Source: Cyanobium sp. FGCU6 (GTDB lineage Bacteria > Cyanobacteriota > Cyanobacteriia > PCC-6307 > Cyanobiaceae). Taken from it: 64,000 bases of DNA. The notes beneath the pieces are model-generated. The model did not search any database. It was not told where the DNA came from and saw only the letters and a list, made by a program, of their open reading frames with translations. Position 1 is the stretch's first letter; every line of letters begins with the position of its first letter. This document shows, piece after piece, positions 28,561 to 36,909 of this stretch. The translations under genes were made by a program, and so were the position numbers. The stretch is from contig JANWUR010000010.1 of assembly GCA_024958655.1 (NCBI GenBank), positions 1 to 64,000 on the forward strand. The letters run 5' to 3'.

Positions 28561-29769
28561 ATGACCCCGCCCACCGGCTCCACCCAGACTCCCCAGCGGG
28601 GCACCGGACGGGGCATCGGCATCCGCACCGCCGCCGGCAGCGACGAGCGCGCCCATGGCCAGTTGCACGTGTACGACGGCGACGGCAAGGGCAAGAGCCA
28701 GGCCGCCCTCGGCGTGGTGCTGCGCACCATCGGCCTGGGGATCTGCGAGCGCAAGCGCACCCGGGTGTTGCTGCTGCGCTTTCTCAAGGGTCCGGGCCGC
28801 TCCTACGACGAGGACGCAGCGATCGAGGCCCTGCAGCAGGGTTTTCCGCATCTGATCGACCAGGTGCGCACCGGGCGCGGCGACTACTTCAGCGCCGCGG
28901 AGGCCACGCCCTTCGACCGGCAGGAGGCGCAGCGGGGATGGGACATCGCCAAGGGGGCCATCGCCAGCGATCTCTACTCGGTGGTGGTGCTCGACGAACT
29001 GAACCCGGTGCTCGACCTCGGCCTGCTCGACACCGCCGAGGTGGTGCGCACCCTGGCCGGCCGGCCGGCCGGCACCGAGGTGATCTGCACCGGGCGCGGT
29101 GCGCCGCGGGAGCTGGTGCAGCTGGCCGACCTCCACTCGGAGATGCGCGCCCACCGGCGCCGTCTGCCGGAGGGCGAAGGCCAGGACGTGCCGATGGAGG
29201 CGCGGGGTGATCGCGGCCTCGACGGCATCGAGATCTACACGGGCGAGGGCAAGGGCAAGAGCACCAGCGCCCTGGGCAAGGCCCTGCAGGCGATCGGGCG
29301 CGGCATCAGCCAGGACAAGAGCCACCGGGTGCTGATCCTGCAGTGGCTCAAGGGCGGCAGCGGCTACACCGAGGACGCCGCCATCGCCGCCCTGCGGGAG
29401 AGCTACCCCCATCTGGTGGATCACCTGCGCTCCGGACGCGATGCGATCGTGTGGCGCGGCCAGCAGCAGCCGATCGACTACGTGGAGGCGGAACGCGCCT
29501 GGGAGATCGCCCGTGCCGCGATCCAGAGCGGCCTCTACAAGACCCTGATCCTCGATGAGCTCAACCCCACGGTGGACCTGGAACTATTGCCGGTGGAGCC
29601 GATCGTGCAGACCCTGCTGCGCAAGCCGGCGGAAACCGAGGTGATCATCACCGGTCGCTGCAAGACGCGGCCCGCCTACTTCGACCTGGCGAGCGTGCAC
29701 TCCGAGATGGTGTGCCACAAGCACTACGCCGAACGGGGCGTGGACCTCAAGCGCGGCGTCGACTACTGA
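28561..29769 (+). CDS. Tandem-domain CobO/BtuR-like corrinoid adenosyltransferase
   Basis: A 402-residue cytoplasmic protein made of two similar P-loop domains. Domain 1 has Walker A GDGKGKS (residues 40-46) and domain 2 has GEGKGKS (228-234). Each then has a conserved acidic helix (YDEDAAIEAL / YTEDAAIAAL), a VVLDELNPVLDL / LILDELNPTVDL Walker B-like strand, and a TEVICTGRG / TEVIITGRC segment. CobO transfers adenosyl from ATP to cob(I)alamin precursors as a homodimer of about 200-residue subunits, so this may be a fused dimer. Both Walker A motifs look intact. Confidence 0.85.
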   Translation: MTPPTGSTQTPQRGTGRGIGIRTAAGSDERAHGQLHVYDGDGKGKSQAALGVVLRTIGLGICERKRTRVLLLRFLKGPGRSYDEDAAIEALQQGFPHLIDQVRTGRGDYFSAAEATPFDRQEAQRGWDIAKGAIASDLYSVVVLDELNPVLDLGLLDTAEVVRTLAGRPAGTEVICTGRGAPRELVQLADLHSEMRAHRRRLPEGEGQDVPMEARGDRGLDGIEIYTGEGKGKSTSALGKALQAIGRGISQDKSHRVLILQWLKGGSGYTEDAAIAALRESYPHLVDHLRSGRDAIVWRGQQQPIDYVEAERAWEIARAAIQSGLYKTLILDELNPTVDLELLPVEPIVQTLLRKPAETEVIITGRCKTRPAYFDLASVHSEMVCHKHYAERGVDLKRGVDY

Positions 29770-33419: not shown

Positions 33420-33439
33420 GGTTGCTCAGGAAAAGGGGA

Positions 33440-33604
33440 TCAGGGAGACAGATGAAGGGCCCACCAGCTGAAGCCGACCACCATGCCGCTCATCAGCACG
33501 AAGCGAATCAGGAGGAAGGAGAGGACGTTCTCACGCCGGGTGATGGCGCGATCCACGGATCGCAGGCGGTTATGGAGTGGGACGAGAAAATCAGGCGTCT
33601 GCAT
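33440..33604 (-). CDS. 54-residue single-pass membrane ORF inside the nrt operon
   Basis: An ORF below usual length cut-offs fills the 220-bp gap between nrtB and nrtC. It begins MQTPDFLVPLHNRLRS, continues with a basic stretch (DRAITRRENV), then one hydrophobic helix (FLLIRFVLMSGMVVGF) and ends WWALHLSP. It starts 35 bp after the nrtB stop and ends 20 bp before the nrtC start, spacing typical of operon genes. No strong Shine-Dalgarno is seen. The basic N terminus predicts a cytoplasmic N terminus. Function unknown; an NrtB accessory is a guess. Confidence 0.6.
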   Translation of the reverse strand: MQTPDFLVPLHNRLRSVDRAITRRENVLSFLLIRFVLMSGMVVGFSWWALHLSP

Positions 33605-33639
33605 GGCTCAGCATGGGAAAGGAGATGGACCGTTGCGGA

Positions 33640-36232: not shown

Positions 36233-36826
36233 TCACGGGGCGGCACCTCCTTTCCCCTGGCGTTGCAGCTGAGGCAGTGCCTCGCGCAGCAGCAGCTCAT
36301 CGGCACCGTCCTTGAGCAGATAGCCCTCCTGCCGGAAATGGGAGAGCGCCTTGGTGACGGTCACCCGGGTCAGCCCCGAGATCTCCGCCAGTTGCCGATG
36401 GGTGAGGTTCATGTCCTCGAAGGACAGGCTGACGCCGCGGCTGCTGACCCGGCCGAAGCGCTCGCCGATCCACAGCAGCAGCTGAAACAGGCGTGATTCC
36501 GCCGGGCGTGTGCGACTGAGGCGCAGCAGCGTGGAGGTCTGCAGGCATTGGTCCAGCAGAAAGGTCTCGCGTTCCTCCGGGCTGGGATTCCTCTCTTCGA
36601 TTCGTGTCGCGGACAGCGCCAGCAGCTGCAACGGCGTCACGGTGATCAGCGAGGGAATCACCAGCTCGCCGGGGCCCCAGAGGCCGAAGGTACAGGCTTC
36701 GCCACAGTCGCTCCAGCTGGCCACCCGCAGATAGCCGTCTTCGATCCGCCAGTTGAGATTGGAAGGGACGGCCGCACCGGCCTGGAGGCTCAGGTGCAGA
36801 TCACGGGCTGTCATGGCAGTCGGCAT
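36233..36826 (-). CDS. Crp/Fnr-family transcription regulator next to nrtA (copy 1)
   Basis: About 197 residues. A divergent effector domain (CTFGLWGPGELVIPSLI) lacks the usual cAMP-binding RExxxxS pocket. The C-terminal winged helix reads MNLTHRQLAEISGLTRVTVTKALSHFR, close to the NtcA recognition helix (TRVTVTR). The ATG at 36826 is preferred over an upstream TTG (36868) because a GTA-N8-TAC site at 36896-36909 would place transcription start between them. It lies upstream of nrtA in the same direction. A close paralogue precedes sbtA. Confidence 0.85.
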   Translation of the reverse strand: MPTAMTARDLHLSLQAGAAVPSNLNWRIEDGYLRVASWSDCGEACTFGLWGPGELVIPSLITVTPLQLLALSATRIEERNPSPEERETFLLDQCLQTSTLLRLSRTRPAESRLFQLLLWIGERFGRVSSRGVSLSFEDMNLTHRQLAEISGLTRVTVTKALSHFRQEGYLLKDGADELLLREALPQLQRQGKGGAAP

Positions 36827-36895
36827 GGCAGGAATAGCGGGCAATGGTGAGATCAACGAATCGATCAACCGGGAGTCATTGACTGTGTCCGGCTA

Positions 36896-36909
36896 GTAGT
36901 CACAAATAC
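36896..36909 (-). promoter_or_regulatory. Perfect NtcA-type box (GTA-N8-TAC)
   Basis: The sequence is GTAGTCACAAATAC, centred about 76 bp before the regulator ATG. NtcA activates cyanobacterial nitrogen genes from GTAN8TAC sites centred near -41. A start near 36861 would fit, although a good TAN3T -10 is not visible. A few chance matches of this motif are expected in 64 kb, so position is the main support. Confidence 0.45.

Follow-up and report, generated by a model that had tools for sequence, protein, structure and literature searches.

The window analyzed here is a 64,000-nucleotide stretch of DNA from Cyanobium sp. FGCU6. On its minus strand, nrtA, nrtB, a small ORF, nrtC, and nrtD follow one another in that order (Table 1). 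NrtB scored 304.1 bits with the curated model TIGR01183, which has a cutoff of 209.05, and NrtC and NrtD scored 397.8 and 400.2 bits with TIGR01184, which has a cutoff of 291.8. The permease and the ATP-binding proteins thus pass nitrate transporter models, and the host operon of the small gene is NrtABCD. The window has the four genes of that system in the same order and on one strand, and it differs by the extra small gene between nrtB and nrtC. An earlier note on this DNA had named these two neighbors and had placed a 54-residue ORF in a 220-bp gap between them, with spacings of 35 and 20 bp. The model scores bear out the names, and the coordinates of nrtB and nrtC agree with the gap and its parts (35 + 165 + 20 bp, with an ORF of 165 bp).

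Table 1. Features of the nrt operon in the window
Feature	Position	Strand	Basis
nrtA, substrate-binding protein, 448 aa	34614..35960	(-)	Pfam NMT1_2
nrtB, nitrate ABC transporter permease, 282 aa	33640..34488	(-)	TIGR01183 above cutoff
Spacer, nrtB stop to small gene, 35 bp	33605..33639	(-)	
Small membrane-protein gene, 54 aa, ATG start	33440..33604	(-)	ORF list, homologues, selection tests, AlphaFold2
Spacer, small gene to nrtC, 20 bp	33420..33439	(-)	
nrtC, ATP-binding, NrtA-like C-terminal domain (Pfam NMT1_2), 667 aa	31416..33419	(-)	TIGR01184 above cutoff
nrtD, ATP-binding protein, 282 aa	30537..31385	(-)	TIGR01184 above cutoff

The small gene reads from its ATG at 33604 to a stop codon ending at 33440, and its product is MQTPDFLVPLHNRLRSVDRAITRRENVLSFLLIRFVLMSGMVVGFSWWALHLSP. 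It is a conserved small gene in an operon of well-known layout, and no Pfam or NCBIfam model fits it. The window's product had no match in Pfam at an E value of 1, and its lone match in NCBIfam was SepX/GlpR (E = 0.091; 12.7 bits against a cutoff of 150). When 19 relatives were scanned singly against Pfam, the best E value was only 0.059. A profile search of the PDB with the window's product returned designed or synthetic helices as the best matches (E = 0.83). The sole named relative found was from Cyanobium sp. FGCU52, with 67% identity across residues 10 to 54. The portions of the open-license literature available to us held no description of such a small gene for NrtABCD, and we know of no one-helix small partner described for this transporter. 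As far as we have found, therefore, the small nrt-cluster gene is undescribed.

Other genes flank the operon. Upstream of nrtA is a gene for a Crp-family regulator (36233-36868, minus strand), with a weak likeness to PtrA and NtcA that is far below both cutoffs. The NtcA-type sequence GTAN8TAC occurs once in the window, at 36896, just before this regulator gene. We dropped it as evidence for an NtcA-type site because 23 of 100 shuffles also hold one. The same sequence was absent from the first 3500 bases of four g8 nrt clusters as oriented. Directly after nrtD lies a gene for a PsiE-domain protein (PF06146; 29813-30661, minus strand). Its ORF as listed overlaps the end of nrtD, and the true start is probably further in. 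A 402-aa ORF on the plus strand (28561-29769) has two similar halves with a GKGKS motif in each, and it resembles a doubled CobO/BtuR-type adenosyltransferase.

Conservation and selection

The length of the small ORF alone is weak evidence for a gene, because an ORF of at least 54 codons was present in 13.0% of 5000 shuffled gaps (dinucleotide shuffling). This is what a chance ORF in a GC-rich spacer has in its favor. However, conservation and selection both refute that explanation, which we now give next to no probability. We searched 42 genomes of the genus, the window's included, and found a full-length nrtB at 73% identity or more in 22, one of which (G010) has an internal TGA in nrtB. All 22 have a homologous ORF in the nrtB-nrtC gap. 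Two of the remaining 20 genomes have a fragmentary nrtB: the G235 contig stops inside the gene, and G251 lacks everything from NrtB residue 241 through NrtC residue 320. One more, G208, has a C-terminal stub, and 17 have no such nrtB among the matches listed.

The earlier note had singled out stops or frameshifts in orthologous gaps as evidence against a gene. Within the genus, the ORF is intact in every genome with a full-length nrtB, an outcome in favor of a gene. Beyond it, a break does occur in G608 (g10), where the reading frame in the nrtB-nrtC gap is open for just a 33-residue second half and the profile match crosses a TAA. The internal TGA of the G010 nrtB (L053) has a counterpart in the nrtB of G551 (L138). 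Each gene has one such codon, from sequencing error or decay, and the small ORF is intact beside both.

Selection was tested by two sets of close relatives. The first set had 14 disjoint, hand-chosen pairs that used 28 of 31 sequences. Their pooled differences were 202.4 synonymous and 256.6 nonsynonymous, and they fell at the three codon positions as 148/90/221. When the same mutations were placed at random positions, 321.2 ± 8.2 were nonsynonymous, and none of 2000 runs gave a count as low as 256.6. Furthermore, every one of these runs had at least one stop codon. The second set was stricter, with 11 pairs whose tree paths did not overlap. It had 174.9 nonsynonymous differences, compared to 224.0 ± 7.0 in simulation. 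Again, 0 of 2000 runs were as low, and 6 of 2000 were free of stops.

Over the 26 pairs with a dS below 0.5, the median dN/dS was 0.33, with 17 pairs below 0.4 and 7 above 0.5. Values above 0.5 included those of the closest pair, G186-G148 (0.72, from 10 changes), and of G145-G208 (1.09). Three pairs involving G183 ranged from 0.53 to 0.83. Values near 1 in distant pairs were put down to saturation. As judged from these substitution patterns, the small ORF is shown to be under purifying selection on its amino acids. Conservation and the selection tests make the small ORF more than a chance reading frame, and on the strength of these comparisons it is almost certainly a real gene.

The membrane helix and its conserved face

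The window's protein has a single hydrophobic stretch that peaks at residues 27 to 45 (mean Kyte-Doolittle value, 2.20). Five basic and three acidic residues precede it, and no charges follow it. The earlier description of one membrane helix after a basic N terminus therefore holds, although it left unmentioned an arginine, R34, that lies within the stretch. AlphaFold2 predicted helices at residues 7 to 23 and 25 to 52. The mean pLDDT was 74.3, with 93 at residues 31 to 40, 89 at residues 41 to 50, and lower values elsewhere. The 31 intact sequences are 48 to 63 aa long, and each has one strong hydrophobic stretch. The charge before the helix is net positive in 26 of them, balanced in four (G162, G185, G551, and G566), and negative in one (G247). 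Judging from this charge, the N terminus is likely in the cytoplasm.

With G208 set aside, all 30 sequences scored have F30, L31, R34, and M41, and the weighted conservation is 0.95 for L37, 0.91 for F45, and 0.83 for M38. The conservation moment at 100 degrees had permutation p values of 0.0003 to 0.0010 over four residue ranges, and 100 degrees was the best angle in each. These p values are a guide, because the 30 sequences are related. A lone helix in lipid needs no single fixed face, so this pattern suggests that the helix probably packs on a partner. The N-terminal part is less conserved than the membrane helix, and all invariant residues besides M1 are in the latter. Among 11 of the sequences, 4 had a significantly amphipathic N-terminal segment (p = 0.151 for the window's protein).

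A single helix with basic residues in a product of about 50 aa would also suit a small hydrophobic type I toxin. However, the gene is bound to a metabolic operon, and a search of phage and plasmid records with the window's protein found no match. We consider a toxin hardly conceivable.

Distribution, moved copies, and history

To follow the gene through the family, we used a profile built from 19 relatives with an E value threshold of 0.01. It matched in 32 of 400 family genomes, with at most 16 candidates scored per genome, such that a divergent copy elsewhere might escape. NrtB, counted at 73% identity or more with fragments included, was present in 51 of the 400. The small gene was in 31 of these 51 genomes (counting the broken copy in G608), compared to 1 of the 349 without nrtB (Fisher p = 1e-31, with phylogeny ignored). 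The sole carrier among the 349, G208, is itself an nrt operon remnant. Outside the window's genus, the small gene is also in the nrtB-nrtC gap in genera g27 (G185 and G551) and g34 (G247 and G566). G566 has two matches near contig ends beside nrt genes (G566:C94 7486-7635 and G566:C124 6404-6514; L126 and L127), which are probably one split locus or come from two strains.

Twenty genomes with nrtB were without the small gene. Three are not judgeable, because G235 and G580 end inside nrtB and G251 is deleted there. The other 17 have a visible nrtB-nrtC spacer. In these operons, with both nrtB and nrtC in view, the spacer contained no homologous ORF, and the profile matched nowhere in the genome. 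Their empty spacers are 22 to 118 bp, measured from the end of the NrtB match. Therefore, NrtABCD presumably works without the small protein.

For other families, we took the best 28 nrtB loci (L062-L089) of a longer list, 25 of which have nrtC downstream. With nrtB and nrtC both visible, these 25 have gaps of 7 to 254 bp that contain no homologous ORF, only some short unrelated ones, and the small-gene profile matched none of the 28 loci at an E value of 1. The earlier note had suggested a search for homologues in other nrt clusters. They do exist in 31 of the 51 family genomes with nrtB but in 0 of these 25 loci. A class-wide profile scan of 291 genomes matched only the window genome, its congener G010, and G495. 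The G495 match (E = 0.0086) was judged to be chance, and it has an internal TAG. Weak single-sequence matches in other genera (L017, L020, L021, and L025-L030) were also rejected. None was backed by the profile, which gave E values of 0.29 for L020 and L021 and 0.82 for L029 and did not list L017, L025-L028, or L030 at an E value of 1. The L017 match overlaps a 492-aa ORF in a different frame. We also looked at seven loci with a 50%-identical NrtB paralogue (L055-L061). At six of them an NrtC-like gene follows the paralogue immediately, without a gap, and no NrtC-like gene was seen at the seventh. A role for the small gene as a general part of NrtABCD was rejected, given the 17 family operons and 25 other-family loci that are without it.

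The gene is not always found in the spacer. In four g8 genomes (G162, G216, G609, and G614) it precedes nrtA instead, and 38 to 162 bp separate nrtB from nrtC. Between the small gene and nrtA, G609 has a gene that looks Crp-like by eye and resembles the Crp-family gene of the window. A DUF6671 gene adjoins the small gene on the opposite strand in three g8 genomes (L006 1833-2705, L005 1711-2586, and L123 7298-8251, all on the plus strand); it was profile tested in L006, and those in L005 and L123 are alike by eye.

G162 has two copies (L121, G162:C9:12000-21500), an intact one of the g8 type upstream of nrtA and a decayed one in the nrtB-nrtC spacer. The end of this spacer can be aligned to the final portion of the window's small gene, and most of the first portion does not align. 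Identity to the window's lineage (G000 and G226) is 88.5 to 88.7% for NrtC and 91.8 to 92.6% for NrtD, compared to 79 to 81% and 84 to 88%, respectively, for five other g8 genomes. NrtB is about equidistant (88.6% to the window's lineage and 86 to 88% to g8), and NrtA is slightly nearer to g8 (77 to 80%, compared to 75 to 77% for the window's lineage). The upstream small protein is g8-like (60 to 63%, compared to 47% to the window's protein). The simplest reading of these identities is a chimeric operon, in which part was replaced, the incoming small gene decayed, and the resident one was kept. If so, one copy at either site would suffice, which fits a protein product rather than a cis element, an argument that comes from one genome.

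The cis element in question would be a leader or coupling ORF, acting on the translation of nrtC or the stability of the message, whose product has no role. The stop codon 20 bp before nrtC is consistent with it, and so is the opening of the frame in several relatives, at a GTG that overlaps the stop of nrtB. However, selection acts on the amino acids, one helix face is conserved, and in the four g8 genomes the gene is far from nrtC. Together with the decayed spacer copy beside an intact upstream copy in G162, this makes a cis element very improbable.

G208 has an orphan copy (L129, G208:C109; L022 1486-1711, minus strand). The last 20 residues of NrtB are followed by an intact small ORF of 49 residues, and no NrtC was seen at this locus. 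The frame is open and most motif residues are kept, with isoleucine at the position of F45. This is possibly a gene in early decay, and the orphan could mean either another role or a recent loss of the operon. Its persistence, and the fact that operon membership is no proof of binding, would suit an operon passenger, a small membrane protein for growth on nitrate or nitrogen stress that has another partner and shares only regulation with nrtABCD. However, the only carrier among the genomes without nrtB is this operon remnant, and the small gene remains in the nrt cluster when relocated. A passenger is therefore unlikely.

A tree of NrtB plus NrtC with 53 rows bears on the history of the gene. 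Twelve of the 17 empty operons form one group (100/100), which adjoins G247 (94/99) and lies within carrier rows (84/99). This placement inside the carriers suggests loss. The other five branch close to or amid the g8-g10-g13 rows or from the open base. At least six gains or losses are needed on this tree, in which 12 of the 50 inner branches are open and the deep forks are weak.

A possible optional component of NrtABCD

The earlier note had proposed that the small protein could be an accessory subunit of the nitrate transporter. Several observations are in favor of this. The gene is encoded almost exclusively with nrtABCD and is kept in the cluster even when moved, and the putative helix has a conserved face. 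However, the gene is not present wherever the transporter is, as the 17 operons without it make clear, and the proposal does not extend to NrtABCD in general. We consider it probable that the small protein is an optional accessory subunit. NrtB would be the likeliest partner, because of where the small gene occurs.

The small gene would encode a single-pass inner-membrane protein, made in the nrt cluster, with its N terminus in the cytoplasm. The conserved face (F30, L31, R34, L37/M38, M41, and F45) would pack on the membrane part of the transporter, most likely NrtB, and the N-terminal helix would sit next to NrtC/NrtD on the cytoplasmic side. From its place toward the cytoplasmic end of the membrane helix, R34 might extend to the interface or form a pair with an acidic residue of the partner. 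In this way, the protein might act as a fifth, optional component that stabilizes or tunes NrtABCD. We infer all of this, from translation of the gene and topology of its product to NrtB binding and an effect on uptake.

Small membrane proteins have been linked with nitrate in another way. NrtS, a bacterial transporter of nitrate, reportedly consists of small transmembrane proteins and transports by itself. The closest parallels to the window's protein concern the way of working only, and one-helix small partners are already known for transporters. AcrZ of AcrAB-TolC (49 aa) is, according to the part of a review available to us, a single helix that binds around transporter transmembrane domains (PMC10710835). 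The window's protein is like AcrZ in having about 50 residues and a single predicted transmembrane helix, and this helix has a conserved face. AcrZ belongs to an RND exporter, whereas the small gene is with an ABC importer. An ABC importer is the setting of LucB, described in the accessible text of a preprint as a small membrane protein that was found by structure to be a formerly unknown subunit of mycobacterial Mce1 (PMC9882608). LucB spans the membrane with several helices (that text names TM2, TM3, and TM4; PMC9882608), compared to one here.

If the small protein does have a partner in the transporter, then partner residues might track its presence. We scanned some 720 columns of NrtB and NrtC in 29 carriers and 17 noncarriers, an exploratory comparison without correction for the number of columns. 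No NrtB column clearly tracked the small gene. The best discriminating columns were in NrtC, and they mostly marked one 12-genome group. Two of them reach slightly past this group. At NrtC 324, valine is in 27 of 29 carriers, and isoleucine is in 15 of the 16 noncarriers that have the column and in 6 of 6 outgroup rows. At NrtC 336, alanine is in 29 of 29 carriers and 3 of 16 noncarriers. Both are mild changes in the NrtA-like domain, and we set them aside as a partner signal.

The small protein might instead be a regulator of uptake rather than a structural component, with its N-terminal helix touching NrtC/NrtD or PII in the shutoff induced by ammonium or darkness. NrtABCD is named as a PII target in the part of a review on small proteins in cyanobacterial regulation that we could consult (PMC7760959). 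In the accessible text of another source, NrtC and NrtD are the components on which PII acts, and the mechanism of inhibition is unsettled and awaits explanation (PMC6603209). The basic N-terminal segment would be on the NrtC/NrtD side, presence of the small gene varies by lineage, and columns 324 and 336, the two that best separate carriers (uncorrected), are in the C-terminal domain of NrtC. Against this, the N-terminal part that would make the contact is the less conserved one, and apart from M1 every invariant residue lies in the membrane helix. We regard a regulator as a minor possibility.

Returning to an optional subunit, a fuller picture falls a little short of an even chance. Some picocyanobacteria may have a five-component importer, in which a helix with a membrane arginine docks on NrtB and alters assembly, gating, or PII shutoff. 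Sequence comparison suggests that the helix gene can sit either ahead of nrtA or in the nrtB-nrtC gap, that it was lost in some lineages, and that in one genome the resident copy may have outlived a second copy from a foreign part of the operon. An optional, conserved small component would be a handle on NrtABCD assembly and control. Lineages that have, lack, or have moved the small gene, or that keep a broken one, are ready natural comparisons. These comparisons can be set beside what has been noted on nitrate transporters in the group. According to the text available from one study, freshwater picocyanobacterial isolates have the nrt ABC transporter and are without the nrtP that strains from marine and brackish water carry (PMC9361551), and in the accessible part of another, a freshwater strain with nrtP is named (PMC10161378).
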